Shown piece by piece: positions 12,966 through 46,419 of a stretch of DNA of 49,538 nt (position 1 is the stretch's first letter; every line of letters starts with the position of its first letter). The notes under the pieces are model-generated. The model was not told the origin of the DNA. It ran no database searches and saw only the letters and a program-made list of their open reading frames with translations. This stretch comes from Hyphomicrobium sp. (lineage in GTDB: Bacteria; Pseudomonadota; Alphaproteobacteria; Rhizobiales; Hyphomicrobiaceae). The position numbers were made by a program, and so were the translations under genes. Where the stretch lies: positions 563,795 to 613,332 of the forward strand of contig NZ_RXIZ01000015.1 of NCBI RefSeq assembly GCF_003987855.1, read 5' to 3'.

Positions 12966-15900
12966 ATGGACATACAAGAGTGCTTTCCTGTTTTAAAAAC
13001 AACCACTCGTGCAATTGTCATTTGTCTAGCCACGGCAACAGGTGCAGCCGCGCAACAGGCGCCAAGTTCCTGCACTGCAGTGCCCGGGATCACGACACTG
13101 GGACAAGTTTATAATCTGCCCCACGATGTGCCGCTGGGCACCTTCAACTCGACCAACAACAACGGCATCCAGAGTAATGTCTCGAACTTTGGGGTCACGG
13201 TGCAGTTACCATCGGGCACAACCGTAACGTATCCAAATTTCACTTTCTCGCTGCTCGGAGAAACCGCACACGAGAGTGATACGGGACCGTCGACTCCCGC
13301 GATGACGGTCCTGAATTGCGGAGCCGGCCCGGTACCGGCGATGGGCATCCTCGCGACGAGTGCCGGGGGTCAGGGCGGCGGCGGCCACGATGAGTTCCTC
13401 GACGCGCATGACGGCGCCCAGGGCGGCAATGGCGGCGCCGTCATCGTCGAGAACGTTGCGGGCGGCATCCTTGGATCCCTCTCATCGCCCGGAGTTGTCG
13501 CCGGCTTCGGCATCATTGCTACCAGTGAGGGCGGCAATGGCGGCGAGGGTGGCAGCAGCACAGTCGCCAGCGGCGGCAACGGTGGAATGGGTGGCAATGG
13601 CGGTAGTGTCATCGTGGCAAACGCCGGCACCATTTTAACGTCCATGTCGCACGCGCCGGGTATGACCGGCGAAAGCATTGGCGGTCAAGCAGGACCAGGA
13701 GGCGATGGGACGCCGTTGGATTGGGCGCATGCTGGCTCTGGTGGCACAGGCGGCAATTCCGGTGCGGATGTCACGGGCGTCAATTCCGGCTTGATTGCCA
13801 CATTGGGCAATGATTCCTCCGCGATCTCCGTGCACAGCGTCGGTGGCAACGGTGGTGCTGGCGGCAGCGAAAGCGGGCTCTTTTTTGCGCTCGGCGGCAC
13901 TGGTGGACGCGGCGGCAATGGGGGCACCATATCCGCGGGCAACAGCGGAACGCTGGTCACATCAGGAAACAATTCAAAAGGCATCAGCGCTCTTTCGATC
14001 GGCGGCGGCGGTGGCGATGGCGGCGCGGCCGTGGCCTTCGGCCCCGTTGTCTCCGTGGCAATCGGCGATGGCGGTGGTGGCGGCGGTTATGGCGCCAACG
14101 TCACCGTCGCCAATTCTGGTACGATCCAAACGTCCGGAACGACTTCCTATGGCGTCAGAGCGCAGTCGGTCGGCGGCGGCGGCGGCGACGGCGGCAGCGC
14201 CACTGTCGTTGCGGCGACACTCGGCGCGGACGTCCCCGTGGCGTCGATCTCTGTCGGTATCGGTGGTAGCGGCGGTGGCGGCGGTGGCTCCGGTACTGTC
14301 ACGGTGATCAACAGTGGTGTCATCGTCACGGGCCCCGGGACAGTATTGAGTCCGGATCAAGATCCCAGTCTGACGCTACCAGGCGATCTGTCCGCCGGCA
14401 TCATGGCGCAATCGATCGGCGGCGGCGGCGGCCTGGGCGGCAACGCGTACTCCGTTTCCGCTACTGCCGATCCGGATGGCTCGGTATCCGTTGCTGTGGG
14501 CCTTGGCGGTTCGGGCGGCAGCGGCGGCAATGGCAGCGATGTAAGCGTCACCAATATCGGCTCCATCACCACTGGCGGTCGCGAGGCGCCGGGTATGCTC
14601 GTTCAATCCGTTGGCGGTGGCGGTGGTGGCGGTGGCAATGTCGTCTCGGTCGCGGCGGCTGCAGGCAGCTTTGCTCTCTCGGCTCCTGTCGGCGTCGGCG
14701 GTTCGGGCGGTACTGGAGGAGACGGCGGCAATGTTTCAGTCGCTCAGGACGGCAGCATCACCACTCTTGCCGAGCAGTCGGCGGGTCTGATCGCTCAATC
14801 CGTGGGCGGCGGCGGCGGCAGCGGCGGGAACGTAACCGGCGTGGCGGCATCGGTCGGGCGGACGTCGGTTTCGCTGAACGTCGGCGTTGGTGGCAGCGGC
14901 GGCAGCGGCGGCGATAGCGGACAAACCATCGTGAACACCGGTGTCGGCAGCACCATTATAACCGCAGGCGCGCAGTCGGATGGGATGATCGTGCAGTCGG
15001 TCGGTGGCGGCGGCGGCAACGGCGGTAGCGTTCACAGTTATTCATTCGCAGCATCTGGCGGGGGCTCGAGCAGTTCGGGAGCGCTCGCGGCGACTGTTGC
15101 GGTGGGTGGCGGCGGTGGTGCCGGCGGCACCGGCGACTCCGCGACTCTCATTTCGAACGGTAGCGTCGTAACCTACGGTGACCAGTCGGATGGCGCGCTT
15201 GTCCAGTCAGTCGGCGGCGGCGGCGGCAATGGCGGTAGCGTCTTTGCATTGGCTGTTTCAGCTTCGCTCGACCAATCGAAATCCGGTGGCGGGTCTTCGA
15301 CGACACCGTCAATTTCGGCTTCTGTTGCCGTCGGGGGAAGCGGCGGCTCGGGAAACTCCGGCGGCGCTGCAAGTTTCACTATGGGCGACACCAGTTCGAT
15401 CCAAACCTATGGTCAGAACTCCGTCGGTGTGAAGGTGCAATCCATCGGTGGTGGCGGCGGCAATGGTGGTGACGCCGAAAGTTTCGCGGTGGCCACCGCT
15501 ATTCCAAATAGCTCTAGCCTTTTTGATCGCGCGTCAGACCTTTTCATCAATTATTTGTCCAAGCTCCGAATTGTCACGGGCCTACCCAATCTGGTCTCCG
15601 GGCAGAATTTTCAGGCGAGCGTCTCAGTCGGCGGCAACGGCGGCTCAGGCGGAATTGGGGGCACGGCGACTGCCAACTTGGGTGCGGGCAGCATTATTTC
15701 CACAAGCGGCGCACACTCAGACGCCCTTGTCGTTCAATCGATCGGCGGCGGGGGAGGCACCGGCGGCCAAAGCGACGCGTCGGGCTTCTCCGGTATCGGC
15801 GCCTATGCTCTCAATTTGGCTGTTGGAGGTCAGGGCGGATCTGGCAATCAAGGCGGAACGGTTTTGATTGGCAATAACGGCGAAGCCTACAACGACCACG

Positions 15901-18809
15901 GCTATATCTTGACTTCGGGCAGTCAGTCTTTTGGGATCCTTGCTCAGTCCATCGGAGGCGGCGGCGGCAACGCGGGCGCGGCAGTCGCATCGAACGTTCT
16001 TTTAAATCCTACGAGCAAGCTCAACGTCGGCATTGGAATTGGTGGCGAGGGTGGGACTGGCGCCGATGGTGGCGCAGTGACTGTCAGTCCCAACCTCAAC
16101 GTCTTCACAACGGGCATCGGTTCTTATGGCATCGTCGCGCAATCCATTGGCGGCGGCGGCGGCTCCGGGAGTTCCGCAACAGCGGGTGGCCGGGTCAACA
16201 TCACGGTCGGCGGTCACGGCGGCGAAGCTGGTAACGGCGATGCCGTAGAGGTCAATCTGGAAGGCACAGTCGCAACGAGCGGGATTGGCGCAGTCGGTGT
16301 CGTCGCCCAGTCAGTTGGCGGTGGAGGCGGCATCGGCGGCGCCGCTGGGGAGCCGTCATCCGCATTGCTGTCCGAGGTGAATGCCGCCCCCTTAGCAGTC
16401 GGCCTTGCTTTTGGCGGTGTTGGCGGAACTGGCGGCGACGGCGGCACAGTGACAGTGAATGCTTCCGGCGCGACCAACAACATTTTCACTACCGGGACCA
16501 CAGCCATCGGCATCCTGGCGCAATCGGTTGGCGGCGGGGGCGGCCTGAGTTCGGTCGTGGGCCTGAATGTCCCGATCGGCGGCCAAGTGCAGTTGCTTGC
16601 CAGGGGCAATAATGGCAACGGCAACGGCAGTGGCGGCGATGTGGCTGTCAGTGACAGTACAAGCGCGAAATTTTCGATCGTTACTTCCGGAGACGGCGCC
16701 GACGGCATCGTGGCGCAATCCATCGGTGGCGGCGGTGGCAGCGCCATAACGGATCTGCCAGCTCTCGCGACCAACATCGACTACCTCGGCAATCTGACTG
16801 CGCCACTTATTGGGTCGGGAGGAGATGTCACGGTCGATTTGAACGGCAGCATCACAACGAGTGGAAACGGCGCTCACGGCATCGTTGCCGAAAGCATGAC
16901 GAATGGCATGTCGATTTTCCAATCGGACGGTATCACCAACCTCTCTGGGCAGGCACTTGTAGGAGGAAGCACGAGCACCGGGGCCGTAAGTGTTACAATA
17001 GACGGTTCCGTGACGACGACGGGCAGCAACGCAGATGGTGTCGTGACCTATACTAACAGCATACTTGCTGGAACCACGACGGTGAACATCGGTGGCACAA
17101 TCGCGGTATCGGGCTCGGGGGCCTGGGGCATTCAGACGAACAATGGCAACAACACCGGACTCTCCGCCTCCGGCCAGGCGACTACCGCCATAACGATCGA
17201 ACCGGGTGGCGTGGTTTCCGCTGGGAGTGCCTCCGCGGGGGCGATCTCGGTGAACGATACGCTTGGTTTCGGGATGATCACGATCGAAAATGGCGGCCGT
17301 GTTACCGGTAATATTTCGGGACCCGAGGGTGCCGGCTTCGCGTCCCCTGTGAGCGTCATCAATTATGGATCTATGACCGGTTCGGTCGCTGATGTCTCTG
17401 CGTATTTCAACTATGGCCAGCATTTTCTCGCCGTCGATCCTCAGGGGCATGCGAGTAACTCGATCAATGTAGGGTCTTTGGCTGCAGTCAGGAACTCGAT
17501 CATCCCGCAATTGACCTCATTGCCGATCGGCGATTTCGCACCCAGCACGATCATCACGGCTGGGAATTTACCGCCGGACAGCACTGCGTCGTCAATCGGT
17601 TTGGAGTCGGGAACCCTGTCGACTCAATACAGTTATGCGGTGACATCTAATTCGGTGGCTATTACCGGAGCGTCTGTCGATTACAGCAGAGCGGGTCTGA
17701 CCGGAAATCTCGGCCATGCGGCGGCTCTGGCGAATGCCCAGGCGCGAGCCATTTCTTCGGGAGCGCATCCCAACCAGCCGAATTCTCCGTTGGACAATTT
17801 TCTTGTTGCGATGGCCAACACCAGTAGCGCCGCCACTCTCCAGAAGGATCTCGCGATCTTCGACGCGACCAAACAGTACTCCGATACCCAATCGAGCGCC
17901 ACTTCGGCGTCCAACGCTTTAACCAATATGCAAAGCTGCGGTGGCGAGGGGGCTGACAAGGCCAGCCTCAATCCCGTTGCACAGGGTAACTGCGACTGGA
18001 TCAGGTACACCTATTCAGATGGCACGCGCCAAAGCGGAGGGCAAAAAGAAAGATCCAACGGCCTGACCTTCGGACGTCAGCAAGAATTCGCGCCGCATAT
18101 CTATTTGGGCGCGAGCGGCGACTATGACCAATTTGAATTTAGTGGCGCGAACGCATCGAGCGAAGGCTCGCGGTTTGCCGCCGGCGGCATCGCAAAATAC
18201 GTCGACGGCCGTCTATTCGGTTCAGTGTCCATGGTGGCCAGCTATGATTGGGCGGACGGAACCCGCCTATTCAATTTGCCAGAGGATCCCAGCGTTTCTT
18301 CAACGCACATTGCGCGGTCGAACCACGCCGCAGTAACGGTCGCGACCCGCCTGAGGTTTGGATACTCCTTCGACTTCAATACATTCGATGTGACGCCGAT
18401 GGCCGATATTGATATCCCCGTGATTCACGATTTCGGTTATCGCGAGCGTGGCGGCGGCCAATTCGACTTGCGGTCGGATGCCGTCACGAACGTGCTGGTG
18501 GATGTGCATCCCTCAGTACAGATCGGCAGTCATGTCCAATATAGAGGCACCGACATTCGCGGGTATGTCGAACCCGGTGTCCGCTTCCAAGAGCTAGACC
18601 CGACAGTCCGGGTCGGCTTGGCAGATGGATTTGATTCCGATTTCACCACAACATTGACCGATCAGCGCGACCGCGTGGTAGGAACGATCGCAGGCGGCCT
18701 GATCATCGACTGGTCTGATCAATTAGAATCACGCTTGCAATGCGAGCGTGATATGGGCCCCACGTCGCAGATCCAGTCCTTGAGTGCAAAGGCAGCACTT
18801 AAATTCTGA
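12966..18809 (+). CDS. giant glycine-rich autotransporter (type Va-like) outer-membrane protein
   Basis: This 1947-residue protein has a signal peptide (TTTRAIVICLATATGAAAQQ, about residues 12-31), a very long passenger and a C-terminal beta-barrel of about 270-300 residues ending in Phe (SAKAALKF), as required for outer-membrane insertion. The passenger contains at least 13 copies of a [AV]-Q-S-[IV]-G-G-G-G-G block, spaced tens of residues apart and each preceded by a Thr/Ser/Asn-rich strand (for example ITTGGREAPGMLVQSVGGGG). This is the pattern of a repetitive beta-helix. Only a few Cys occur (near both ends of the passenger). The G-rich DNA yields many proline-rich shadow ORFs on the minus strand. 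The start ATG at 12966 has only GGAA before it. It is probably a surface adhesin or biofilm factor; ligand unknown. It is the main cargo of the tRNA-bounded segment. Confidence 0.92.
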   Translation: MDIQECFPVLKTTTRAIVICLATATGAAAQQAPSSCTAVPGITTLGQVYNLPHDVPLGTFNSTNNNGIQSNVSNFGVTVQLPSGTTVTYPNFTFSLLGETAHESDTGPSTPAMTVLNCGAGPVPAMGILATSAGGQGGGGHDEFLDAHDGAQGGNGGAVIVENVAGGILGSLSSPGVVAGFGIIATSEGGNGGEGGSSTVASGGNGGMGGNGGSVIVANAGTILTSMSHAPGMTGESIGGQAGPGGDGTPLDWAHAGSGGTGGNSGADVTGVNSGLIATLGNDSSAISVHSVGGNGGAGGSESGLFFALGGTGGRGGNGGTISAGNSGTLVTSGNNSKGISALSIGGGGGDGGAAVAFGPVVSVAIGDGGGGGGYGANVTVANSGTIQTSGTTSYGVRAQSVGGGGGDGGSATVVAATLGADVPVASISVGIGGSGGGGGGSGTVTVINSGVIVTGPGTVLSPDQDPSLTLPGDLSAGIMAQSIGGGGGLGGNAYSVSATADPDGSVSVAVGLGGSGGSGGNGSDVSVTNIGSITTGGREAPGMLVQSVGGGGGGGGNVVSVAAAAGSFALSAPVGVGGSGGTGGDGGNVSVAQDGSITTLAEQSAGLIAQSVGGGGGSGGNVTGVAASVGRTSVSLNVGVGGSGGSGGDSGQTIVNTGVGSTIITAGAQSDGMIVQSVGGGGGNGGSVHSYSFAASGGGSSSSGALAATVAVGGGGGAGGTGDSATLISNGSVVTYGDQSDGALVQSVGGGGGNGGSVFALAVSASLDQSKSGGGSSTTPSISASVAVGGSGGSGNSGGAASFTMGDTSSIQTYGQNSVGVKVQSIGGGGGNGGDAESFAVATAIPNSSSLFDRASDLFINYLSKLRIVTGLPNLVSGQNFQASVSVGGNGGSGGIGGTATANLGAGSIISTSGAHSDALVVQSIGGGGGTGGQSDASGFSGIGAYALNLAVGGQGGSGNQGGTVLIGNNGEAYNDHGYILTSGSQSFGILAQSIGGGGGNAGAAVASNVLLNPTSKLNVGIGIGGEGGTGADGGAVTVSPNLNVFTTGIGSYGIVAQSIGGGGGSGSSATAGGRVNITVGGHGGEAGNGDAVEVNLEGTVATSGIGAVGVVAQSVGGGGGIGGAAGEPSSALLSEVNAAPLAVGLAFGGVGGTGGDGGTVTVNASGATNNIFTTGTTAIGILAQSVGGGGGLSSVVGLNVPIGGQVQLLARGNNGNGNGSGGDVAVSDSTSAKFSIVTSGDGADGIVAQSIGGGGGSAITDLPALATNIDYLGNLTAPLIGSGGDVTVDLNGSITTSGNGAHGIVAESMTNGMSIFQSDGITNLSGQALVGGSTSTGAVSVTIDGSVTTTGSNADGVVTYTNSILAGTTTVNIGGTIAVSGSGAWGIQTNNGNNTGLSASGQATTAITIEPGGVVSAGSASAGAISVNDTLGFGMITIENGGRVTGNISGPEGAGFASPVSVINYGSMTGSVADVSAYFNYGQHFLAVDPQGHASNSINVGSLAAVRNSIIPQLTSLPIGDFAPSTIITAGNLPPDSTASSIGLESGTLSTQYSYAVTSNSVAITGASVDYSRAGLTGNLGHAAALANAQARAISSGAHPNQPNSPLDNFLVAMANTSSAATLQKDLAIFDATKQYSDTQSSATSASNALTNMQSCGGEGADKASLNPVAQGNCDWIRYTYSDGTRQSGGQKERSNGLTFGRQQEFAPHIYLGASGDYDQFEFSGANASSEGSRFAAGGIAKYVDGRLFGSVSMVASYDWADGTRLFNLPEDPSVSSTHIARSNHAAVTVATRLRFGYSFDFNTFDVTPMADIDIPVIHDFGYRERGGGQFDLRSDAVTNVLVDVHPSVQIGSHVQYRGTDIRGYVEPGVRFQELDPTVRVGLADGFDSDFTTTLTDQRDRVVGTIAGGLIIDWSDQLESRLQCERDMGPTSQIQSLSAKAALKF

Positions 18810-20103: not shown

Positions 20104-20427
20104 TTAGGAGTATCGCGCCGCAACTTCCTTCATTTTGAGGGCGATATCCGTTGGGGTTAGAATGCCTTTACGTAAAAGGATGTTGGAGAAGGCGACGATC
20201 CAACGCTCGTAATAGCTGAGCTTTCCGATCATTTCCGCCCCGAGAGCTTCGACCCCACAGCGCTTCTCCTCCGTATTGATAATCTTGTGAAAGTCGAGAA
20301 CGTCGGCCAGCGCGTGGCAACGTTTCTCCCAGGGCGCCAAATCATGGTCGATAGGGTTGATGGGGTCGGCAGGCATGCCGCCGATGTCATTGGGTAAGCG
20401 AATTACAAGCTCGGAGCTATCAGACAT
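20104..20427 (-). CDS. thiocyanate hydrolase beta-like subunit (nitrile hydratase beta N-terminal half)
   Basis: This 107-residue protein corresponds to the N-terminal half of nitrile hydratase beta. The marker LPNDIGGM matches the HD-x-GGM start of that family. The helical block APWEKRCHALADVL and the segment KLSYYERWIVAFSNILLRKGILT match the conserved YY-x-x-W region. The start ATG overlaps the stop of the catalytic-subunit gene (8 bases, 20420-20427), implying translational coupling. In thiocyanate hydrolase and toyocamycin nitrile hydratase, the beta chain is split into two polypeptides, as seen here. A nitrile hydratase accessory protein is a less likely reading, because those lack the IGGM start. 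Confidence 0.8.
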   Translation of the reverse strand: MSDSSELVIRLPNDIGGMPADPINPIDHDLAPWEKRCHALADVLDFHKIINTEEKRCGVEALGAEMIGKLSYYERWIVAFSNILLRKGILTPTDIALKMKEVAARYS

Positions 20428-21088
20428 GCGCGGCACTCCCGTTTTCGAGCTTCGGTTCGACCACACCGATCATAGCATCTCGAGTGACGAGGTCCGCGAG
20501 CTCCTCTTCGGTGAAAGTCTCGGTGCCTTTGGGCCGTTTCGGCAACACAAGGTAGCGGACCATCGCGGTCGAATCGCTAACCCTCACTTCGACGTCATCG
20601 GGAATGGTGGTGCCGAACTCGGCGAGCACTTTCCTCGGCTCCGACACGGCGCGCGCGCGATAAGGCTTCAGTTTGTACCAGTCGGGTGGAAGACCGAGCA
20701 CGGGGCGCGGATAGCAGGAGCAGAGCGTGCAGACGATAAGGTTATGAACCTTGTCGGTGTTTTCGAGCACGATCAGCTCAGTGTCATCGTAGAATGTAAT
20801 ACCGAAATCCTCCTCACACGCCGTGCGGCCGTTGGCTAGGAGGCGTTTGCGGAAGTTCGGATCTATCCAAGCGCGGGCGACGACCTTGGCGCCAAGCGCA
20901 GGTGTGCGGGAATCCAGAACCTCGATCTGCCGCCGGATCTCGTCGGCCTCAAAAAGCTTTCGTTCAATCAGCAGTTCTCGGATGGCCGTCTCTAGCATGT
21001 CGTAGTAGGTCGGCTTCTCAGTTTGGTTGATCTCCGCGTGCGGATGGTCGTGTTCATTATGATCATGATCGTGTTCCGTGTGGGTCAT
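20420..21088 (-). CDS. cobalt-type thiocyanate hydrolase/nitrile hydratase catalytic (alpha/gamma) subunit with His-rich N terminus
   Basis: This 222-residue metal subunit hydrates thiocyanate (to carbonyl sulfide and ammonia) or nitriles (to amides). The metal claw is VCTLCSCYPRPVLGLPPDWY, with Cys120, Cys123 and Cys125; Thr in the C-T-L-C-S-C motif indicates the cobalt form. The arginine after CSCYP (YPRP) resembles thiocyanate hydrolase more than nitrile hydratase (YPWP). YRARAVSEPRKVLAEFG and RPKGTETFTEEELADLVTRD are the usual C-terminal blocks. The start at 21088 follows GAGAGGGTGTGAAG. Residues 1-17 contain seven histidines (THTEHDHDHNEHDHPH), an unusual metal-binding head. The gene begins 2 bases after the preceding subunit's stop. 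Confidence 0.88.
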   Translation of the reverse strand: MTHTEHDHDHNEHDHPHAEINQTEKPTYYDMLETAIRELLIERKLFEADEIRRQIEVLDSRTPALGAKVVARAWIDPNFRKRLLANGRTACEEDFGITFYDDTELIVLENTDKVHNLIVCTLCSCYPRPVLGLPPDWYKLKPYRARAVSEPRKVLAEFGTTIPDDVEVRVSDSTAMVRYLVLPKRPKGTETFTEEELADLVTRDAMIGVVEPKLENGSAAHV

Positions 21089-21090
21089 CT

Positions 21091-21429
21091 TCACACCCTC
21101 TCGATCCAGCTTTCGAAGACCTCGATGCGCAATCCATCCTTCGGCGAACCGGTGTAATCGGGCCAAAGCTCAATCATAGGGAACGCGATCCGATAGTAAT
21201 GACGCCGTGAGCCGGCGTTGCGGCCGTAGCCTTCTTCCTCGTTGTCTACGAAAGCTGGTTCAACGACGGCCTCGACGCGCCCGATCTTTTTGCGGAGATA
21301 GCGGGGCACGCGGTAGTGTCCGACGGGCATTCGGTCGGCGATGCGAACCTCGTCCCCGGCCTTGAAGATCGGTGCTTCGCCGAATGCCGATACGATTTGT
21401 AAGGACTTTGGAGCGGGACGCGCAGTCAT
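21091..21429 (-). CDS. thiocyanate hydrolase alpha-like subunit (nitrile hydratase beta C-terminal half)
   Basis: This 112-residue protein matches the SH3-like C-terminal domain of nitrile hydratase beta. It has FKAGDEVRIADRMPVGHYRVPRYLRKKIGRVEAV, with the G-H-x-R-x-P-x-Y-x-R-x-K-x-G signature that contacts the metal site, and the C-terminal YYRIAFPMIELWPDYTG. The ATG at 21429 follows GAAGTGAGTCAGCG; a longer in-frame start at 21462 would overlap the upstream hydrolase. It is the first of three packed subunit genes. The conserved arginines in RVPRYLRKK probably bind the active-centre cysteine oxyanions, as known for the family. Confidence 0.85.
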   Translation of the reverse strand: MTARPAPKSLQIVSAFGEAPIFKAGDEVRIADRMPVGHYRVPRYLRKKIGRVEAVVEPAFVDNEEEGYGRNAGSRRHYYRIAFPMIELWPDYTGSPKDGLRIEVFESWIERV

Positions 21430-21436
21430 CGCTGAC

Positions 21437-22387
21437 TCACTTCGCAACAAGATTTCGATCAAGGAAATCGTGGATCAGCGGCACCATTTCATCCGCCTTG
21501 TCCTCAAGTGCAAAATGCCCGGTATCAAGGAGATGGAATTCAACCTTGGGCAAGTCGCGCTTATAGGGATAGGCGCCGTCTGCCGGAAAGATCGTATCGT
21601 TCTTGCCCCAGACGATCAGCGCGGGCGGTTGGCGTTCCCTGAAGAAAGCTTGGAACTTCGGGTAAAGCGGCACGTTCGTCCCGTAATCGAGGAACAGATC
21701 GAGTTGGATGTCCTTGTTTCCCGGTCGATCAAGCAGGCGTTGATCATGACCCCAATTGTCCGGATCGATCCGGGTGACGTCGCTGACGCCGTCCGTATAT
21801 TGAAATTTCGTGGTTTCCGGCTTGACGAGAAAACTCAAGGCTTCGCGGTGAGCGTCTGAGCCGTCGGCCCAATAGGCCTTGATGGGGTCCCAGAATTTCT
21901 TAAGGCCTTCCTCGTAGGCATTGCCATTCTGAATGATGAGCGCCGTGACACGCTCCGGATGCTTGAGTGCCAGTCGGTAGCCGACGGGCGCGCCGTAATC
22001 CATCAGATACAAGGCGTATTTTTGGACCCCGAGCTTGTTTGCCAACCCATCCATCAGATCGGCGTAGTGAGCAAAGGTGTAGGCGAATTGCTTATGATCG
22101 GGAGCGGCGCTTTCGCCAAAGCCCGGATAGTCGGGAGCGATCACGTGATAGCGATCGGCGAGCGCCGGGATCAAATTGCGAAACATATGGGAGGATGTTG
22201 GAAATCCGTGCAGCAAGAGCACAACAGGCGCGTCGGCAGGGCCGGCCTCTCGGTAGAAGATATTGATGCCGTCGATGTCGGCATTGCGATAGTGGGTCAC
22301 AGGCATCCCCGCTTCGGCGATCCCGGTTCCCATCAAGAGGGCCAACAGTGTCATCCAGGTCCGAAGGTGGCGCGCGCACGCAGACAT
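21437..22387 (-). CDS. exported alpha/beta hydrolase with Asp nucleophile (haloalkane dehalogenase/epoxide hydrolase type)
   Basis: This 316-residue protein has a Sec-type signal peptide ([17 protein letters not shown], about residues 11-27). The hydrolase core has [15 protein letters not shown] and [12 protein letters not shown]; the nucleophile elbow reads LMDYGAPVG with Asp130 rather than Ser. Asp264 (GKNDTIFP) and His291 (DTGHFALED) complete the triad. An aspartate nucleophile forms an alkyl-enzyme ester, as in haloalkane dehalogenases and epoxide hydrolases; the cap residues do not let me choose. Export to the periplasm is the notable feature. The gene is 37 bases after the MBL gene and 7 bases before the first thiocyanate-hydrolase-like gene, so it is co-transcribed with them. 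Confidence 0.88.
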
Positions 22388-23384: not shown

Positions 23385-23648
23385 CGTATCCTCTGCGCCC
23401 GCCAATGAACCGATTAGGTTCAATAGTTAGATCAGGCTTCGATGAAGGTTGGAAGACCATTATTACCTGTAAATCTGCCATACATGCAGCAGACAAGGTC
23501 GGTGATTAATCCCTACAATTCCAAATCAATCGAAATTCTGAATAGTGCGGGCCCAACAATAAATAGATCTAACGAGAGTGAAGTTCCGACAGTCTTTGTT
23601 CAATGCGCCAAATTGGAAATATGGTTCGTTATAAACGCAATCACGCCG

Positions 23649-23965
23649 ATAGATCGGCTGGACGCTATGTCCGTCTTTATGACAATCGTCGAGGCCGAAG
23701 CTTCTCGGAAGCGTCGCGGCGTCTAGGCATGCCGCTGGTAATTGTGAGCCGTAAGCTCGCCGAGCTCGAGGCAACATCCGCGTCTCACGTGATGCCCAAA
23801 GCCGATCCACCGGCTGACGTGGTTCTAAGGGCCGTGACCTCCACCCGCCCACGTCGGCGCTATACCGCCGGCAAGATCGCTCGCCAGATTAGCTTGCTGT
23901 GTCGTTTGTCCCCCGCCGAGATCTTCGACAAGGGCCTTCGCAAGCAGCTGCGGTTGCCCGTGTGA
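23649..23965 (+). pseudogene. frameshifted LysR-type regulator remnant
   Basis: Two frames together spell a LysR N terminus: IDRLDAMSVFMTIVEA in frame 1 and then SFSEASRRLGMPLVIVSRKLAELE in another frame. The expected text would be VEAGSFSEASRRLG; a single base appears lost around 23696-23699 (GCCGAAGC instead of GCCGGAAGC). The natural start is ATA at 23649 instead of ATG. After the helix-turn-helix the sequence no longer resembles an effector domain and stops at 23965. It is divergent from the MBL/hydrolase/thiocyanate-hydrolase cluster, so it probably once regulated it. Confidence 0.75.
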
Positions 23966-24137: not shown

Positions 24138-27100
24138 TTAGGTCCGCTCGAGCGCAAAGAGATCGAAGTTGCCGCGCAGCACGTCTTCGACTCTGCCGCT
24201 GCGAACACTGCCGTCTCCATTGCGAACCAGCGGGGTCGCTCCCCGCCGGTATCGCCGGACGATGTGCGTGGACCGTTTGGCCTTGTCGCCGAACGCTTCC
24301 GCAAGATCATGAGCGGTTTCGGCCTTGAACGCGTTGCCAAGCGGCAATGCGGCGACGAGAACTTGCGCCGTGACACGGCTGCCTCCGACCTCGCTTCTCT
24401 CGAGAATATGCAATCCGGCTTCGCGTGCGAGCGCCCGATAGGCTCCGAAGCCCGAGACGATCAACACCGAATTAGCGCCGCCCGGTCCAGGGCCGAGCTC
24501 CGTTGCATTCATGTTTCGATTACGTGCCCAGGCCCGGTACATTGTGCCGAGTTCGGCGCACCACGCGAATGCGGCCTCGCTTGCATCCATGTCCGTCACG
24601 AAGGCCGGCTCTACGACGAGTGCGACTTCCACCGGCGCCCGTTCGTCGAGATCCTTCAAACCTTCATTGACGAGGTGAATTTGCATCGCAAGCCGGGAGA
24701 CGAGCTCCCGGAAGCTTTTTCCCCGCGCTCCAATCTGCCGTTCGAGACGTCCCGCAAGTGAAGTTGCCGTTTCGGTCGCGACCTCCAGGCGGTCCATCAA
24801 TTCGAGCCGGACAAGTGTTTGCGCCCGATCCGCCCGCGACCAAAACTCGGGAGCGCCAATCTCGCTGGTCAATCGTGATTTCTCTGCCGCCCATTCGGCG
24901 GACTCAAGCCGGTCTGTAATTGGTTCGCGGGCAGCGGCCAGAACGGCGATTTCCTCGCGGTCGCCGGAGGGCGCGCGTATCATGTCGAACAGGCTCGATG
25001 GGGCACCGGCTCTCGTTTGCTCTTCAGCCGGTGTCGCGACGGCGCCATCGCCATCCGGATCGACGAAATCAGCGCGCAGCGCATTGCCGTCGCGGCGGAC
25101 GAAAACGAACTGGTCGCCTTCGGGGAAACGCCGTTCGACGATCGTTTCGGCCAAAGGAGCGATGACAAAGTGATCGACTGCACGCTTCAGCGGCCGGGCA
25201 CCCATCTCGGCGGAGAAGCCTTTCTCAAGCAGGAATTCGATCGCGCTTGCGTCCCACTCGACAGCCCAATCGCGATCTTTCAGGCCGCGCCGTTCAAAGA
25301 TGCGAGCAAGCTCTTTCATCAAGATTCCCCGCATCAATTCGCGGGTAAGCGGCTTGAAGATGATGACCTTGTCGAGCCGGTTTTGAAACTCGGGACGGAA
25401 CGTTTGCGAGATGGCCCTGTGGATCTGCTCATCCTTGAAGTCGGACGAGGACGGTCTGAAACCAATGCTTCCCGTTTCGCGATGCGTAGTCGCGCCGAGG
25501 TTCGAGGTCAGGATGATGATGCTGTGTCGGAAGTCCGCAGTCTGTCCGGTGGCATCGGTTAGCCGGCCCTCGTCGAAGACCTGGAGAAAAAGATCCCAGA
25601 TCTGCGGATGCGCTTTCTCGAACTCGTCCAGCAGCACAACCGAGAACGGCTGCTTCCCGATACGCGCGACGAGCGTCTCGGCGTCTGCCGGAACATTACC
25701 TCCGCCGAGGATCTTCTGAGCGCCTTCGTAGGTCTGGTATTCGCTCATGTCGAGGCGGATCATGCGATCGGTCGAGCCGAAAAGGTAATCGGCGACAGTC
25801 TTCGCAAGCTCCGTCTTGCCGGTCCCCGTGGGGCCCGCGAACAGAAAGACACCGATCGGCTTCCCCGGATCGTTGAGGCCGGATTTGAGCATTGCGATGC
25901 GCTCGACCAGCGCGTTGACGGCCTCGGGCTGTCCAATGACCCGAGCCTGGAAGAACTCACGAACCTGATCGAGGCTCAGGCGTTCGGCGCCATCGAGGAT
26001 CGAAAGCGGCAGACCAGTCATCTGCGAAAGTGTCTCGAGGACTTCCCGGCCACCGAGGGATTTGCTCTTCGCCTTCTCCGAGCGCGCGGCGGTCATTTTC
26101 ATGAGGGAAAGGGCTGCCCCCGGAAGATGCATCGAGGTCAAGTATCTTTGCGCCGCATCGACGGACGTTCTGGCGAAGCTCGGTTCGATGGGTATTCGCG
26201 CCGACTGTTCCAGGCGTCTGGCAAGGATCTCCGCGAGCGCGATGGCATCAGCTTCATCCATGTCCTCCATGCGCACGATTTCGAGATGGCGCCTCAAGGC
26301 GGGCTTCAGCTGCTGCAGCTTCCTCGTCGCTGCAAGCGAGGCTTCGGCCCAGATCAGGACCCGTCCGGCCGACACCGCAGGAAGGATCTGATCGAGAATG
26401 CTCGCGCTCTGGCTCTGGTGCGCTCCGCTTAGCGCAAGGCCAAGAAGGTCCGGAACGTACCAGATCAATTTCTTGCTGATGTCGAGTTCCTGCAGTGCGT
26501 CTCGTATGCGCCCCTCGAGCTGGCCGATGTACATCTGCCCGGCTTGGAGATCGGCTCCGCTGGCTTGGAGCACGCGCCAGCCACTTGCTGCGATGCGCTC
26601 GGCCAGAAGCTTCAGGAACGATGTCTTTCCGACATGGGATTCGCCGCTGACCAGGAGGACGCGCAACGAGCCGCCCTCAAGCAACTGTTGCGCGGCGTCG
26701 AGCGCGTCCTTCCAAGCGTCAGCCTCAATGAGAAGTCCGTTCTCGGAGTTGTTCCAGAACCGGCCGATCGACTCCAGGAAGGGTGATTGCGCTTGCGATG
26801 ACGAGCTTTCTGCCGTTGATGCCGGATTCTGCTGGACGGTGGGCGGGGCTATCTCTGCCCCGAGCCGGGCCGCGATCGGGTGACTGACCAGTGCCAGGAA
26901 ATCCCTGATCTGCTCGCGCTTCCAGAGCGGCAAGGCCATGACGTCGGGCCCCGCGTCGGCAGGCGCGTCGTCGCCAAGAGCCGCAAAATGCTCGGCAAGC
27001 AGGTGGCGGAGGAGGACGTTGTCCGGCCACCAGTCGCGGAAGCCGACAAGGAACGCGCCCGTCGCGGGGCGGGGATCAGCTTTCCGGAGATACTGAAAGG

Positions 27101-27512
27101 CGAATGTCATCTGCCATACGGACAGGCCGTCGAAACGTGCTGGCACACGCGATGCGGATCCCCAAGCGTCTGGTCGTTGCGCCAGAGCAGCAAAGGCGGC
27201 GCATGACAGCGGCCAGTTCTGCCCGAAGGCGTAGTCGAAGAGCGTATCGATGGGCGTTTTTGGATCGACGAGAAGGACTACCGCGCTCTTGAAGTCTTCG
27301 TTCTCCGCGAGCTCATTGGTGTGAGCGGAATCGCGCGCAAAAGGTTCGAGCGTCTGGCTGATCTTGTGCAACTTGGTGCCGAGCCGTGGCTCGGGCGCGC
27401 TCTTTCCAAAATGCCGGAACTTCTTCAGATCAGCCCAGGTGCCGCCGCGCAGCCGGAAAACGATCATCCCTCCGATGATTGTCCAGAACAACAGTACAAG
27501 GATCTGATCCAC
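24138..27512 (-). CDS. membrane-anchored Clp-type AAA+ ATPase fused to a GGQ-less release-factor-2-like domain
   Basis: The product is 1124 residues from a GTG at 27512, chosen because GGAGAG precedes it and the next residues form a membrane helix (VDQILVLLFWTIIGGMIVF). A linker domain of about 230 residues follows. AAA module D1 has Walker A GESHVGKTSF (about 290-299) and a ClpA-like MYIGQLEGRI loop, but a degenerate Walker B (IWYVPDLL), so it may not hydrolyse ATP. D2 is intact: GPTGTGKTEL (about 560), LLDEFEKAH (about 627), FRPEFQNRLD arginine region (about 705), and the ClpB_D2-small domain with GFSAEMGARPLKR. The D2 pore loop GYVG is replaced by GGGNVPADAE, while SIGF (about 682-685) occupies the ClpP-binding position. 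Residues about 865-1124 resemble RF2 (APEFWSRADRAQ; VSGFGAYRALAREAGLH; terminal VEDVLRGNFDLF), but SPF and the whole GGQ section are absent. Confidence 0.82.
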   Translation of the reverse strand: MDQILVLLFWTIIGGMIVFRLRGGTWADLKKFRHFGKSAPEPRLGTKLHKISQTLEPFARDSAHTNELAENEDFKSAVVLLVDPKTPIDTLFDYAFGQNWPLSCAAFAALAQRPDAWGSASRVPARFDGLSVWQMTFAFQYLRKADPRPATGAFLVGFRDWWPDNVLLRHLLAEHFAALGDDAPADAGPDVMALPLWKREQIRDFLALVSHPIAARLGAEIAPPTVQQNPASTAESSSSQAQSPFLESIGRFWNNSENGLLIEADAWKDALDAAQQLLEGGSLRVLLVSGESHVGKTSFLKLLAERIAASGWRVLQASGADLQAGQMYIGQLEGRIRDALQELDISKKLIWYVPDLLGLALSGAHQSQSASILDQILPAVSAGRVLIWAEASLAATRKLQQLKPALRRHLEIVRMEDMDEADAIALAEILARRLEQSARIPIEPSFARTSVDAAQRYLTSMHLPGAALSLMKMTAARSEKAKSKSLGGREVLETLSQMTGLPLSILDGAERLSLDQVREFFQARVIGQPEAVNALVERIAMLKSGLNDPGKPIGVFLFAGPTGTGKTELAKTVADYLFGSTDRMIRLDMSEYQTYEGAQKILGGGNVPADAETLVARIGKQPFSVVLLDEFEKAHPQIWDLFLQVFDEGRLTDATGQTADFRHSIIILTSNLGATTHRETGSIGFRPSSSDFKDEQIHRAISQTFRPEFQNRLDKVIIFKPLTRELMRGILMKELARIFERRGLKDRDWAVEWDASAIEFLLEKGFSAEMGARPLKRAVDHFVIAPLAETIVERRFPEGDQFVFVRRDGNALRADFVDPDGDGAVATPAEEQTRAGAPSSLFDMIRAPSGDREEIAVLAAAREPITDRLESAEWAAEKSRLTSEIGAPEFWSRADRAQTLVRLELMDRLEVATETATSLAGRLERQIGARGKSFRELVSRLAMQIHLVNEGLKDLDERAPVEVALVVEPAFVTDMDASEAAFAWCAELGTMYRAWARNRNMNATELGPGPGGANSVLIVSGFGAYRALAREAGLHILERSEVGGSRVTAQVLVAALPLGNAFKAETAHDLAEAFGDKAKRSTHIVRRYRRGATPLVRNGDGSVRSGRVEDVLRGNFDLFALERT

Positions 27513-27885
27513 CGAACTCTCCGAGCGCCCTGCTTTCGGGAAGAGAAAAAGCAGAACCGCCCGCACGGTTGTCAACTGGCCCGCGCACAATGGCGCGGCC
27601 TCCAAGAAGATGAGGCTTTTGAACCGAAAGGCTTAACCCTACCTGGTGAAGCTCAGATAGGATGCCAGTGCATCACGCTTGGGCGGCCAATCATACTATT
27701 ATCTCAAGCGGAAGCTCGAGCAGGGGCCCGAGGGGCAAGGTATAGTCCGCTGCAGCGTTCACCGCCTTATGGACGACAGATCCGCACCCGCTCTGCTGTG
27801 CACGCGTGGCACGCTAAGCGCACGACTATTTCAGTGGGACACTCGCCGACAGAAATGCGAAGGCCGCGGGCTCATCAGATCGTGT
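27513..27885. other. divergent spacer without a supported gene
   Basis: About 370 bases between the AAA+ gene start and the small membrane protein. In-frame ORF extensions on both strands lack ribosome-binding sites and family content. I see no clear promoter or RNA. Confidence 0.45.
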
Positions 27886-36640: not shown

Positions 36641-36784
36641 CGGGGCAATGATGTGGTAAGCATTGATCTTCAGTATGCGTAGCGATTTGCCGGCTTGATG
36701 AGCCTGCATCAGGGCCTGGCTTCGGCTGCTTGGTGCTTGCTAAGCCGCGCGCGGAGATTATCAGTTCGGAAACGCTCTACGACG

Positions 36785-38704
36785 ATGTCATACAAAGCCA
36801 CCTTGGGCTCACATCATGACCTCCGGGCAGCGACGCGACTGATCCTCGGCATGGCCGCGATCATCTTCGTGACAGAAGGGCTAATCATGGTCCTTTTGGC
36901 TAACGTCGATTTTTCGAATTATCCGTTGATCGAGGCCGCCATTGACGCCGGTTCGCTGACGGCGATTGCGGCGCCTCTATCCTATTTCATCTTGCTGAAA
37001 CCCTTCATCTTGCGGACGGCAGCTGCGGAAGCTGCACTATCGAGTGCCTTGGAGACGAGTCGAGCGCGAGAAAAAGAGCTTACCGCGGCCCTGGCGGACG
37101 CGGAGCTACAGAAGAGAGTCTTGGATCAGCATTGCTCGTATACGAAAACGGATACCCGCGGCCGCATCATCTATACGAATGACCAATTCATTCGAATGAG
37201 CGGGTATTCCCGCGAGGAAATCATTGGGCGGACCCATGGCATCGTGAATTCCGGCACGCATCCCAAAGCGTTCTGGGCCAACATGATTGAAACCTTGAAG
37301 CGCGATGGCGTCTGGCAAGGCGAAGTTTGTAATCGGAAAAAGGACGGCTCGCTATACTGGGTGCAAGCGACCAACGTTGCCGAGAAGAACGCTGAAGGAA
37401 AGTTGACGGGATATTTCAGCGTTCGCTCCGACATCACGCCAACAAAGCTGCGTGAGGAAGAACTCGGGAAAGCGCAAACCGAGCTTCGCCGCGCCATTGA
37501 GATTGCCGAAGCGGCCAGCCGCGCCAAGTCGGGCTTTCTTTCCACCATGAGCCACGAGATGCGCACACCGTTGAATGGCGTGCTCGGCGCGCTCCAACTG
37601 CTCGATCAAGAGGGATTGACGGAAAGGCAGAAGGACCTCGTCGAGCGTGCGAAGGAGTCGAGTGAAGCGCTCCTGGTACATATCAACGACGTCTTGGATT
37701 TCTCGAAGCTCGAGGCTGACAAGCTTGATCTAGATCCGCAAGCGTTCGATTTGGTCGCGCTTCTGAATTCCGTAAGCCACATTGTCGAGCCGCAAACGCA
37801 AAAGGCTGGAAACACAATTCGATTGATTCTCGACGAGGGCTTACCCAAGCGCTTGTCTGGTGATGCGATAAGACTGAAGCAGGTACTGCTCAACCTCGTC
37901 TCGAACGCTGCGAAATTCACCCGTAAAGGCGAAATCAGCGTGTCCGTCGCACGGATCGGCGGCGATGACGCACGTCCCTTGCTCGAATTTGCAGTGCGCG
38001 ACACTGGGATAGGAATTCCCGAGGAACGCCTGAACGACCTGTTCCGCGAGTTCTCGATGGTCGACTCCTCGTACACGCGGCGCACCGGCGGAACGGGGCT
38101 CGGCCTCGCGATTTCCAAACGGCTGATTGAGATGATGGGCGGCGAGATCGGGGTCAGCAGCCAAGCTGGAGTCGGCAGTCGGTTCTGGTTTCGCTTGTCT
38201 CTGCCGTGCGCGAATGGCGAGGACCACGAGACCAGCGAAGTCGAGACGACTTCCGCTGAGCCGGTTGGCAGGTTCGCCATTCTGCTCGTCGACGACAACC
38301 GCACGAACCGGTTCGTAACGAGCCAGCTTCTTCTCTCGGCCGGCCATTCGGTGGTGTTGGCATCGAGCGGCAAGGAGGCAGTCGATTTGGCCGACCGGAG
38401 CAAGTACGACGCGATCTTCATGGATATATCGATGCCCGATATGGATGGGCTTGAAGCGACCCGCATGATCCGATCGCTATCGCGCTACAACGCGGACACT
38501 CCGATCGTCGCGTTGACGGCTCACGCCGTCGTCGGCGACAGAGAGCGTTTCCTCGCCCGCGGGATGAATGGCTACTTGGCGAAGCCCGTCAGGCTTCGCG
38601 ACATTGCCCGAACGCTTGCGCAGATTGAGGTTGGCCGGGCGACGCCTCAGGGCACGGCGCAAGTCCTAAAGTCCGAAACCGCGAGCCCGGTATCCGTGGG
38701 ATAG
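36785..38704 (+). CDS. PAS-domain hybrid histidine kinase/response regulator
   Basis: This protein has about 639 residues. Two membrane helices near the N terminus (RLILGMAAIIFVTEGLIMVLL and LTAIAAPLSYFILL) precede a coiled linker. The PAS domain begins GRIIYTNDQFIRMSGYSREEIIGR and ends at FSVRSDIT. The HisKA box is FLSTMSHEMRTPLNGVLGALQLL with the phospho-His at about 257. The ATPase has NLVSNAAKF, RDTGIGIP and GGTGLGLAISKRL. A C-terminal receiver domain carries the phospho-Asp in FMDISMPDMDG (about 547) and Lys in LAKPVR. There is no HPt domain, so it would need a separate HPt partner. The start at 36785 is uncertain; an ORF from 36695 adds 30 residues without support. Confidence 0.93.
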   Translation: MSYKATLGSHHDLRAATRLILGMAAIIFVTEGLIMVLLANVDFSNYPLIEAAIDAGSLTAIAAPLSYFILLKPFILRTAAAEAALSSALETSRAREKELTAALADAELQKRVLDQHCSYTKTDTRGRIIYTNDQFIRMSGYSREEIIGRTHGIVNSGTHPKAFWANMIETLKRDGVWQGEVCNRKKDGSLYWVQATNVAEKNAEGKLTGYFSVRSDITPTKLREEELGKAQTELRRAIEIAEAASRAKSGFLSTMSHEMRTPLNGVLGALQLLDQEGLTERQKDLVERAKESSEALLVHINDVLDFSKLEADKLDLDPQAFDLVALLNSVSHIVEPQTQKAGNTIRLILDEGLPKRLSGDAIRLKQVLLNLVSNAAKFTRKGEISVSVARIGGDDARPLLEFAVRDTGIGIPEERLNDLFREFSMVDSSYTRRTGGTGLGLAISKRLIEMMGGEIGVSSQAGVGSRFWFRLSLPCANGEDHETSEVETTSAEPVGRFAILLVDDNRTNRFVTSQLLLSAGHSVVLASSGKEAVDLADRSKYDAIFMDISMPDMDGLEATRMIRSLSRYNADTPIVALTAHAVVGDRERFLARGMNGYLAKPVRLRDIARTLAQIEVGRATPQGTAQVLKSETASPVSVG

Positions 38705-43418: not shown

Positions 43419-46286
43419 TTAGGCGGCTTTCTCTCTGGCGACGCCATCAAGATAATCGGCGAAAGCCTTTTCCGTCCGGAGCAGCATGTCTTCGAATGCC
43501 AAGCTGCCGCTTAAAGCATCCGACATGTTTTCCTCGGCGCACAGGCGCTCGATACTTCTCGCCAGTTCCCGCAGTTGACGCGCGCCGGCGCTGGCACTCG
43601 CGCCAGCGATCGCATGACTAAGGCGCGATAGCTCCCGCGCATCGGCATTTGCGCGCGCAACCGTCAATTCGGCGAGCCGATCATGCATTTCCTCGACGAA
43701 TTCGCATACGATCATCCGGACTGTGTCTGGCGTGGTCGCGAGCAAAAGATCGGAAAGCGATGCGAGATCGAGCAAGTCGCCTTGGTCGTCGCGGGGCTCG
43801 CTCTTGGCTGTGAGTCCCTCAGCCTGCGCCTTGGCCGGCAGTGACTTGAGCACATCCTCTATGCCGCCGACGCGCAATGGCTTCGTCAGGTAATCGTTCA
43901 TGCCCGCAGCCAAGAATTTTTCGCGATCGCCAGCGATTGCGTTGGCGGTCAGCGCCACGATAGGGACGTCGCTGTAGGGAGGAGCCAACGTCCGTATCTG
44001 ACGCGTAGCTTCCAGGCCGTCGAGCTCCGGCATCGATATGTCCATGAAGATGATGTCGTATAAGGTTGCGCTGGCAGCTTCGACAGCTTCGCGCCCATTG
44101 TTCGCCGTATGGACGCGATGACCCGCAGCTTCCAAGAGCCGCTTGCCGACGATGCGATTGGTCACGTTGTCATCGACGAGCAGGATGAGCCGCTTTTCCA
44201 CGGGACCCGACATGCGCCGCCCCGTGGATGTTTTCTTGACCTCGCCTTCGTTCGCGCGAGGCAAAGTCAGCTTGAACCAGAATGTGCTGCCTTCGCCTTC
44301 CTTGCTGAATACGCCGATCGTGCCACCCATAGCCTCTATGAGCCGCTTGGAGATCGCGAGCCCGAGCCCTGTCCCTCCGCTGTTGCGCGTGTAGGTGGAG
44401 TCAAGCATCGAGAATTCTTGGAACAGGTCTTTCAACCGTTCTTCCGAAATGCCGATGCCGCTGTCGACGACCTGAACTTCCATGGTGGGCGACTCTTCGC
44501 TTCCACCTGCTCGTAGCACCCGGATCTTGACCGAGCCCTGGCGTGTGAACTTGTTGGCGTTCGAAACGAGATTGAGAAGGACCTGGCGGACGCGCACCGC
44601 GTCTCCGCGAACGAACTTTGGAAGTTCGCCGACCATCTCTGATCCGAGATGGTTATCTCGCGCCTCCGCTTGAGGGGTGACGATATCCAAGACGCTGCCG
44701 ACGAGCTTACCGAGATCGAAAGCCTCAGAAGACAGCCTCAGCCGGCCAGCCTCCATCTTGGAGAAGTCGAGAACGTCGTTGATGTGGACGAGCAATGCTT
44801 CGCTCGATTCCGTGGCGATCTCGACCGCTTCCGCTTGTTCCAGGCTAAGGCTCGTTCTGCGGAGGATTTCGAGAGCCCCGATGACCCCGTTCAAGGGCGT
44901 CCGCATCTCGTGGCTCATTGTCGAAAGAAAGCGCGACTTCGTGGTGATTGCCACGTTCGCGGCGTTAATGGCTTCCTCGAGCTGCGTCTGACGGCCCACT
45001 TGGGTCGTGATGTCGCCGAGCGTGATGACGCTGCCCCCGCTGGCGAGCTTATGACAGCGCCATTCGACAATCCGTCCGCTCGGTCGCCGCAACTGGCAAT
45101 TTTCAGGGAAGCTTTTCTGAGCGTCATCGCTGGTATCTAATGATTCCGGCAGCTCAGCGCCGGTCCGAAGGTTTTTCAGGAAGATGGCAACTTCTCGCTT
45201 GGAGGCAACCTCCAGGATTTCTTCGGCCCGCGCGTTGACCACCGCTAACTCGTTGTTGGCTTGCACCATGATGACGCCCTGATCGATATTGGCGAGTGTC
45301 ACCTCGAGTTCCTTCGTGCGCTCTGCGACCCTGCGTTCCAGCGTCTCGTTGAGCGACGACAACGCGTTGAGGCTGCGTTTCAGAATTGCCGCGCCTTGTC
45401 GTCCTCGGCGGACAGCAAGGAATGCGATGCCGGCGAATAGAGCCAGAGCCACCGCAACGGCAATCGAAACCTGCGCGGCGAATTTGCCGCTGGCATCCGC
45501 TTTTGACCAAACCAGCGTGCCGACCGGCGTGCCATTGGCGGCGCGAACAACGAGTTCGTCACGGCCGGATTTATTGACCTCGGTCCAGTGAAGATCTTGG
45601 AATCCGAAGCGACGGCCGAGTTCGCTCACCTCATCGGACAGGAGGTAGTCCACGGCAACGAGAAGGAACGGCCGAGCTGCAATCTGGCCTGGCTGGGCTG
45701 CGTCGGGCACGATTGTTTCCACGATCACAAGTGCCGGCCGATTTCCTATTCGCCTCACGTCTGAGACGATGCGGTGCTCTGCGATCTGGCCTTTGCCCAG
45801 GTCGAATGCCGTGGTCGCTGGGTGGCTGTCGTGAGCAACGCGACTGTTCCGGGACCTGAGAGTTGCGACCAAATCGTCTATCGGGCGCCACTTCGCGTCG
45901 AACGAGCTAGGCTCCGAACGTTGACCATCTTGAAACGCAAAGACCGGCTTGTTGCCATCGTCCAGAACGTAGATTTCGTCATAGTCCAACAGATTGCTGA
46001 GGTAGGCACCGTAAAAGGAATTCATCCAATCGAGGTTCAGAGAACGGGAGTTGACATATGCGTCGCTCCACACCGTTTCCATCTTGAGCTCTCGGGCTCG
46101 TGAATCACCCAACAGTCGAAATACGCCGGAAATTGCTTCCGCATCTTCCGTCCGGGAATGCTGGCGCGAGTAGGACAAGCCAGCAAAAAAGGTCCCCACC
46201 ACGACGATAACCGCCGCGGCAAGACTTACGAATATTGGAATTTCGACAGAGTTCTGAAGGAACTTCTGCGCCTGACGGTGCGGCAT
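43419..46286 (-). CDS. CHASE4-domain hybrid histidine kinase with receiver and HPt domains
   Basis: This 955-residue inner-membrane kinase starts with a helix (IPIFVSLAAAVIVVVGTFFAGL). A periplasmic CHASE4 domain (about 40-260, with ELKMETVWSDAYVNSRSLNLDWMNSFYG, first part) precedes the second helix (QVSIAVAVALALFAGIAFLAV). A PAS domain is followed by HisKA (FLSTMSHEMRTPLNGVIGALEIL, His about 459), the ATPase (NLVSNANKF, DSGIGI, GGTGLGLAIS), a receiver (FMDISMPELDG, Asp about 749) and a C-terminal HPt (RLSHAIAGASASAGARQLRELA, His about 891). The ATG at 46286 is chosen over an in-frame GTG at 46313. It can therefore run a full His-Asp-His relay, ending on the HD-GYP receiver downstream. The signal sensed by CHASE4 is unknown. 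Confidence 0.94.
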   Translation of the reverse strand: MPHRQAQKFLQNSVEIPIFVSLAAAVIVVVGTFFAGLSYSRQHSRTEDAEAISGVFRLLGDSRARELKMETVWSDAYVNSRSLNLDWMNSFYGAYLSNLLDYDEIYVLDDGNKPVFAFQDGQRSEPSSFDAKWRPIDDLVATLRSRNSRVAHDSHPATTAFDLGKGQIAEHRIVSDVRRIGNRPALVIVETIVPDAAQPGQIAARPFLLVAVDYLLSDEVSELGRRFGFQDLHWTEVNKSGRDELVVRAANGTPVGTLVWSKADASGKFAAQVSIAVAVALALFAGIAFLAVRRGRQGAAILKRSLNALSSLNETLERRVAERTKELEVTLANIDQGVIMVQANNELAVVNARAEEILEVASKREVAIFLKNLRTGAELPESLDTSDDAQKSFPENCQLRRPSGRIVEWRCHKLASGGSVITLGDITTQVGRQTQLEEAINAANVAITTKSRFLSTMSHEMRTPLNGVIGALEILRRTSLSLEQAEAVEIATESSEALLVHINDVLDFSKMEAGRLRLSSEAFDLGKLVGSVLDIVTPQAEARDNHLGSEMVGELPKFVRGDAVRVRQVLLNLVSNANKFTRQGSVKIRVLRAGGSEESPTMEVQVVDSGIGISEERLKDLFQEFSMLDSTYTRNSGGTGLGLAISKRLIEAMGGTIGVFSKEGEGSTFWFKLTLPRANEGEVKKTSTGRRMSGPVEKRLILLVDDNVTNRIVGKRLLEAAGHRVHTANNGREAVEAASATLYDIIFMDISMPELDGLEATRQIRTLAPPYSDVPIVALTANAIAGDREKFLAAGMNDYLTKPLRVGGIEDVLKSLPAKAQAEGLTAKSEPRDDQGDLLDLASLSDLLLATTPDTVRMIVCEFVEEMHDRLAELTVARANADARELSRLSHAIAGASASAGARQLRELARSIERLCAEENMSDALSGSLAFEDMLLRTEKAFADYLDGVAREKAA

Positions 46287-46419
46287 AGCGAGTATTAACC
46301 TCCCGCTATGCACCGTAGTTGAATTCGATTAAGCACCGGATAATTCGGTATACTGAACGTCGCTACAAAGCTTAATCGGACCTTGTACTTCTGGCGTAAA
46401 TCAGAATGGCTCTCGTACT

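Follow-up and report, generated by a model that had tools for sequence, protein, structure and literature searches.

Introduction

Release factor 2 (RF2, PrfB) and the two-ring ATPases ClpA and ClpC are the described systems closest to the subject of this report, a single gene (24138..27512, minus strand) on a 49,538-nucleotide stretch of DNA from Hyphomicrobium sp. (contig NZ_RXIZ01000015.1, positions 563,795 to 613,332; the whole stretch is called the window) that joins a membrane-anchored Clp-type ATPase to an RF2-like core. In RF2, the catalytic domain 3 is described as an insertion within the codon-recognition domain (available text of PMC6514570). PrfB3 of land-plant chloroplasts, an RF2 paralogue, has lost both SPF and GGQ, binds the petB 3' untranslated region preferentially and is described as an RNA stabiliser; the available text mentions neither an ATPase nor a membrane anchor (PMC5897788). 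A relative of RF2 that lacks both motifs can therefore persist as an RNA-binding protein. PrfH is the reverse of the fusion protein, as GGQ is kept and domain 1 is absent (available text of PMC1586002). Both halves of the fusion belong to known families, and the combination itself is known to us from nowhere else: literature searches found no description of a Clp-ATPase/release-factor fusion, and the 2019 survey of release-factor evolution has 'Clp' nowhere in its main text and mentions no such fusion in the text available (PMC6514570). This agrees with an earlier note on this DNA, whose author knew of no characterised protein with this architecture.

Architecture of the fusion gene

The longest open reading frame (ORF), open throughout, spans 24138-27605 (-) and encodes 1155 amino acids (aa). 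The GTG at 27512 is likely the start codon, because the membrane helix of both close relatives (L003 and L004) likewise begins with VDQI(L/F)V at this position; the coordinates and frame of the earlier note were thus right. Domain limits were taken from alignments and an AlphaFold whole-chain monomer model with a mean predicted local distance difference test (pLDDT) of 74.6 and a predicted template modelling score (pTM) of 0.45. We regard the resulting order of a membrane helix, an N domain, two AAA modules and an RF2-like end as close to certain.

24138..27512 (-), whole gene: GTG start, stop TAA, 1124 aa
27450..27512 (-), predicted N-terminal membrane helix, residues 1-21, then RGG (hydropathy; helix 2-21 in the AlphaFold model)
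26778..27383 (-), all-helical N domain, residues 44-245 (AlphaFold model, alignments)
26073..26777 (-), AAA module 1, residues 246-480: retains Walker A and the pore-1 aromatic, Walker-B Asp substituted
26622..26645 (-), module 1 Walker A, GESHVGKT (motif alignment)
26529..26531 (-), module 1 pore-1 aromatic, Tyr328 (alignment)
25053..26072 (-), AAA module 2 and D2-small, residues 481-820: complete set of intact ATPase motifs
25812..25835 (-), module 2 Walker A, GPTGTGKT (motif alignment)
25677..25715 (-), site of the deleted module 2 GYVG pore-1 loop, KILGGGNVPADAE (deleted in 16/16 members)
25611..25634 (-), module 2 Walker B, LLDEFEKA (motif alignment)
25458..25466 (-), IGF tripeptide at the position of ClpA's ClpP-docking loop (alignment)
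24978..25052 (-), variable linker, residues 821-845 (model and alignment)
24642..24977 (-), RF2 domain-1-like helical part, residues 846-957, with the APEFW motif (profile and structure alignment)
24141..24641 (-), RF2 domain 2/4-like superdomain, residues 958-1124 (Pfam/profile matches and structure alignment)
24261..24341 (-), junction at the place of RF2 domain 3 (GGQ), about 25 residues vs about 95 (profile alignment)

The highest 19-residue Kyte-Doolittle mean lay near the N-terminus in all 16 full-length members (10 alphaproteobacterial and six of another class, the set also used for the ring motif counts below) and was 1.58-2.80, lowest and borderline in L066, and the best stretch elsewhere in any member reached at most 1.78. 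Hydropathy therefore bears out the N-terminal membrane helix proposed earlier; in the model, helix 2-21 has a pLDDT of only about 56-61. Because RGG, marking the positive side, succeeds the helix, the rest of the protein is expected to lie in the cytosol. The N domain matched no Pfam family of note (one of 11 members, E-value 0.089) and gave no match of note in sequence searches; its fold was modelled only inside the whole chain.

The C-terminal region is an RF2 core without elements of termination

RF2 kinship was seen in both directions of search. On its own, the C-terminal 320 aa matched Pfam PCRF (2e-5) and NCBIfam prfB (3e-5), and PCRF was matched individually by 10 of 11 members (best 1.1e-10) in a scan in which two unrelated families each also matched one member. 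An 11-row family profile searched against the PDB matched RF2 at 1e-12; release factors made up 39 of the 43 rows, and the other four were proteasome subunits (E-value 0.23-0.62). In the reverse direction, a 5-row profile found ordinary RF2 genes in whole genomes with E-values of 4.5e-12 to 7.7e-9 (18 places, nine identified by sequence and nine taken as RF2 from open-frame length). Profile and structure alignment together place the folds of RF2 domain 1 and domain 2/4 in this region; the assignment of the last piece (profile 235-272 on RF2 315-352) rests on the structure alignment, since its own E-value was only 9. The earlier note had read the region as RF2-like and in RF2 order, and had named PCRF-type matches in homologues and structure prediction as checks; the latter, set beforehand, gave an RF-like and not a non-RF fold, and the former are the 10 of 11 given above.

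Motifs were compared between 17 family members and a set of 10 RF2 and one RF1 sequences. SPF or SPY, the GAGG-type motif and HTS/QTS were present in 10/10 RF2 and absent in 17/17 members. Domain 3 has been cut out, as profile positions 210->235 span RF2 219->315 in the HMMER profile alignment used for this junction, leaving about 25 residues instead of about 95 (another alignment placed the SEVGG...VAALP stretch opposite domain 3), and the remainder of the core still folds in the model. The letters GGQ occurred in two of the 17 members (L067 and L068), in the linker and the helical domain and not as part of a domain 3. With neither the stop-codon tripeptide nor the GGQ domain, translation termination in the RF2 manner is therefore precluded; the absences listed in the earlier note, and its statement that the protein cannot terminate translation, hold for this mode. 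The GAGG-type and HTS motifs are codon-reading elements of RF2 and also contact the decoding centre of the ribosome, and with their loss any ribosome docking would be codon-blind. Near the C-terminal end, LVR(D/N) and R(S/T)GR were found in 17/17 members; at the aligned Arg positions the 10 RF2 compared carry Lys and no Arg.

Searches for RF2 relatives also returned two loci of G000. The genome's own prfB (L071, C18:21934-22974) contains one in-frame TGA within its RF2 match, presumably as expected of the prfB programmed frameshift. A 147-aa open frame (L073, G000:C8:193123-193389) matched prfB positions 221-284 and is probably ArfB.

The two AAA rings and a possible ClpP partner

Against Pfam, the whole protein matched AAA_2 (8e-43), AAA (1e-15) and ClpB_D2-small (5e-15), in keeping with the two Clp-type modules recognised earlier; the modules with D2-small have the Clp fold, which places the protein with the Hsp100/Clp double-ring ATPases, and their structural neighbours are ClpC, Hsp104, ClpA and ClpB. 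The fusion protein resembles ClpA and ClpC in having two AAA modules, a complete module 2 and no ClpB middle domain, the coiled coil that sets apart the ClpB/Hsp104 disaggregases and was absent in 10/10 members aligned. Unlike ClpA and ClpC, it has a membrane helix, another N domain (Clp_N was not among the best 25 of 33 Pfam families), a module 1 without the Walker-B Asp, a module 2 without the GYVG loop, and an RF2 core at its end. The NCBIfam ClpA model scored 311 bits, far under its cut-off of 993.

In module 2, Walker A, Walker B, sensor 1, the Arg finger and sensor 2 were all intact in 16/16 members, and the GYVG pore-1 loop was deleted in every one. Module 1 kept Walker A and a pore-1 aromatic (Y, F or W) in 16/16, its Walker-B Asp was present in 0/16 and the Glu after it in 4/16. 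These motifs indicate that the rings have exchanged roles family-wide, with the pore aromatic staying only in the ring that lacks the Walker-B Asp.

Unfoldases that partner ClpP carry a docking loop, hydrophobic-G-F or IGL, in their last AAA ring. The loop at the ClpP-docking position read IGF, LGF or MGF in 10/10 alphaproteobacterial members, and [ILM]GF was found in 3/3 ClpA and 0/3 ClpB controls. Because the flanks of the loop vary, this conservation is unlikely to be passive, and a ClpP-type protease partner, absent from the earlier proposal, is plausible in alphaproteobacterial members. A ClpP gene was present in 16/16 host genomes (above cut-off in 10), as was a separate ClpA, above cut-off in all; since both exist besides the fusion gene, the fusion protein is an addition to the host ClpA/ClpP and not a replacement.

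The fusion is conserved as a unit across classes

A total of 19 genomes carried the fusion, from samples that overlap (G000 recurs): three of the 22 genomes of the window's genus (G000, G013 and G015), G023 in its family (60 genomes searched), eight of 397 in the order sample, two of 385 in the class sample, three of 398 in the phylum sample (two of them outside the class) and eight of 147 in the family of one out-of-class carrier. RF2 was returned at 15 places in 14 further genomes and G456 in the order sample, and at three places in the class sample. The match lay within an open frame of more than 1000 aa in 17 of the 19 genomes, the remaining two being at contig starts, and a scan of genome contigs gave three loci identical to three genes from the genome search. 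No stand-alone RF core was found in the sampled genomes at an E-value of 1e-8 (class, order) or 1e-20 (phylum, one family). Among 249 sampled genomes of the order, six were positive for the N domain at 1e-4, all of them fusion carriers, and none outside these carriers. An assembly chimera was rejected: the single contig of G1119, a 100% complete genome, carries a member, and 16 full-length members share the arrangement. Searched with tblastn, 72,556 plasmids gave 2287 matching records, of which 0 covered 80% of the query. PADLOC defence models matched the AAA parts, and one weak match (1.1e-4, in L065) started in the N domain.

The fusion is retained down to about 36% identity. Mean pairwise identity among the full-length members was 20% in the helix and adjoining stretch, 27% in the N domain, 37% in AAA1, 63% in AAA2, 36% in RF domain 1 and 43% in RF domain 2/4. 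Among three close relatives, the ratio of non-synonymous to synonymous substitution rates (dN/dS) was 0.046-0.116 in AAA1, 0.030-0.057 in AAA2, 0.035-0.112 in RF domain 1 and 0.112-0.157 in the RF domain 2/4 (D2/D4) core, values that indicate purifying selection on this core.

A proposed membrane unfoldase docking through its RF2 core

The conserved family suggests a membrane unfoldase that attaches to ribosomes or RNA in a so far undescribed role. We give a probability of roughly 0.4 to the full mechanism, a membrane unfoldase docking a translation-linked target through the RF2 core, of which the ribosome step, hexamer and client are inferred. Substrates enter Clp proteins from the N-terminal side, and ClpP lies on the D2 side; with an N-terminal helix, the entrance would therefore sit at the membrane and the RF2 shells in the cytosol beside any ClpP. 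Through the helix, a hexamer would be tethered at the inner membrane, its helical N domain and ring 1 turned towards that membrane; ring 1, which has the pore aromatic and Walker A and no normal Walker B, would grip the substrate, and ring 2, complete as an ATPase but with no pore loop to grip with, would provide the force. At least in alphaproteobacterial members, the [ILM]GF loop would dock ClpP. On the distal cytosolic face, the RF2 shells would bind their target independently of any stop codon; the ribosomal A-site region or rRNA/mRNA is the most likely candidate. Such a codon-blind shell could keep the machine attached to ribosomes or RNA close to the membrane. The outcome would be unfolding or ClpP-dependent degradation of proteins at membrane-bound ribosomes, for example stalled or misinserted nascent chains.

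A narrower version, which we consider unlikely, is a quality-control machine for membrane-bound ribosomes in which the RF2 shell would enter or cover a stalled A site codon-blind and the joined unfoldase would pull the nascent chain away. Equally doubtful is the analogy that this machine, with ClpP in alphaproteobacterial members, might be a one-polypeptide counterpart of the eukaryotic Vms1-Cdc48 pairing, which brings a release factor together with an AAA+ unfoldase in ribosome quality control (available text of PMC6514570).

If the proposed mechanism is true, this would be, to our knowledge, the first Clp-type unfoldase targeted by a translation factor domain, and its RF2 core a natural release factor reduced to a docking shell. 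One protein would make testable both codon-free ribosome binding by the RF2 domain 2/4 fold and bacterial clearance of membrane-bound ribosomes with stuck chains, and the exchange of ring roles would offer a natural experiment on how gripping and force are divided in double-ring AAA+ machines.

Several observations weigh against this mechanism. The pore-1 loops of both ClpA rings touch the polypeptide (available text of PMC9663308), and a ring 2 that has lost its GYVG loop makes ordinary threading less likely. In the other class the docking loop reads MGF in only one of six members, PGF in four and PAF in one, and ClpP docking therefore cannot be general. Because the lost codon-reading elements also contact the decoding centre, the protein may have ceased to target the A site. 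The structural model is of a monomer only, with the whole-chain pTM of 0.45 given above, and no translation gene was a common neighbour in the loci compared. Finally, dN/dS among the three close relatives marks the RF D2/D4 core as the fastest-evolving large domain.

The loss of codon-reading motifs in 17/17 members, together with the retained family-specific Arg residues, would also suit an RF2 core that acts off the A site as an RNA- or partner-binding adaptor, bringing clients or mRNAs to the membrane unfoldase. PrfB3, without SPF and GGQ and with its preference for petB, is the precedent for this alternative, which we judge improbable though the best of those considered; PrfB3 itself is described neither as an ATPase nor as a membrane protein in the text available (PMC5897788).

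A lower likelihood attaches to a membrane-protein extraction or quality-control ATPase in the style of FtsH and Msp1, in which the RF2 core would only stabilise or regulate the hexamer distally. Both enzymes are membrane-anchored AAA+ proteins, Msp1 according to the text available. Each has a single AAA ring and is not known to have a release-factor part. The path from N-terminal helix through the AAA rings to a far-side C-terminal domain would resemble FtsH topology, and the intact ATPase motifs of ring 2 and the high dN/dS of the RF D2/D4 core fit this explanation. Family-wide, however, conservation of that core exceeds that of AAA1 and the N domain, which is more than a spacer needs, and none of the genomes searched showed the RF core or the N domain without the other.

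That the RF-like region is a degenerate relic of gene fusion with no present role is very improbable: the catalytic domain and codon motifs are indeed lost, but the fusion persists at such low identity and in more than one class, and its RF parts are under purifying selection, which largely refutes a relic.

Genomic neighbourhood

Neighbours were compared within the ten first loci and within the six other-class loci, each set separately. Among the ten first loci, neighbour clusters spanning more than two loci occurred only within one family (f210), where six of ten neighbour ORFs scanned had matches: pyruvate kinase, DUF1036, a response regulator, N-formylglutamate amidohydrolase (twice) and an M15 peptidase. 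An apparent link between the window and L033 was merely a common PAS domain. In four of the six other-class loci, all of genus g517, genes for M12-type (reprolysin-like) secreted metallopeptidases lay near the fusion gene, and in three, also all g517, MerR-TipAS regulators lay downstream on the same strand.

L079 11098-13563, M12 metallopeptidase
L086 2941-5469 and 5823-7859, M12 metallopeptidases
L087 460-2739, M12 metallopeptidase
L089 14920-17049, M12 metallopeptidase (all have a PPC domain, most of them with a P domain)
L079 4751-5497 (-), MerR-TipAS regulator
L086 11606-12442 (+), MerR-TipAS regulator
L087 8269-9018 (+), MerR-TipAS regulator

TipAS domains bind thiopeptides, antibiotics that target the ribosome; the adjacency hints weakly at ribosome stress, or is plain synteny. 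Most likely, the fusion gene works as a single gene with general partners.

The nearest window genes scanned encode hydrolases, a metallo-beta-lactamase-fold protein, a nitrile hydratase alpha chain (20104-21462, -; by eye, two small adjoining ORFs may be partner subunits) and an ABC uptake system. Beside the fusion gene, a small ORF at 23603-23965 (+) has no Pfam match and looks by eye like a remnant of a LysR-type regulator. A 1947-aa ORF at 12966-18809 (+) had no Pfam match at 1e-3. Two hybrid sensor kinases are also present in the window, one at 36695-38704 (+) with PAS, HisKA, HATPase and receiver domains and one at 43419-46313 (-) with CHASE4, PAS, HisKA, HATPase, receiver and Hpt domains.
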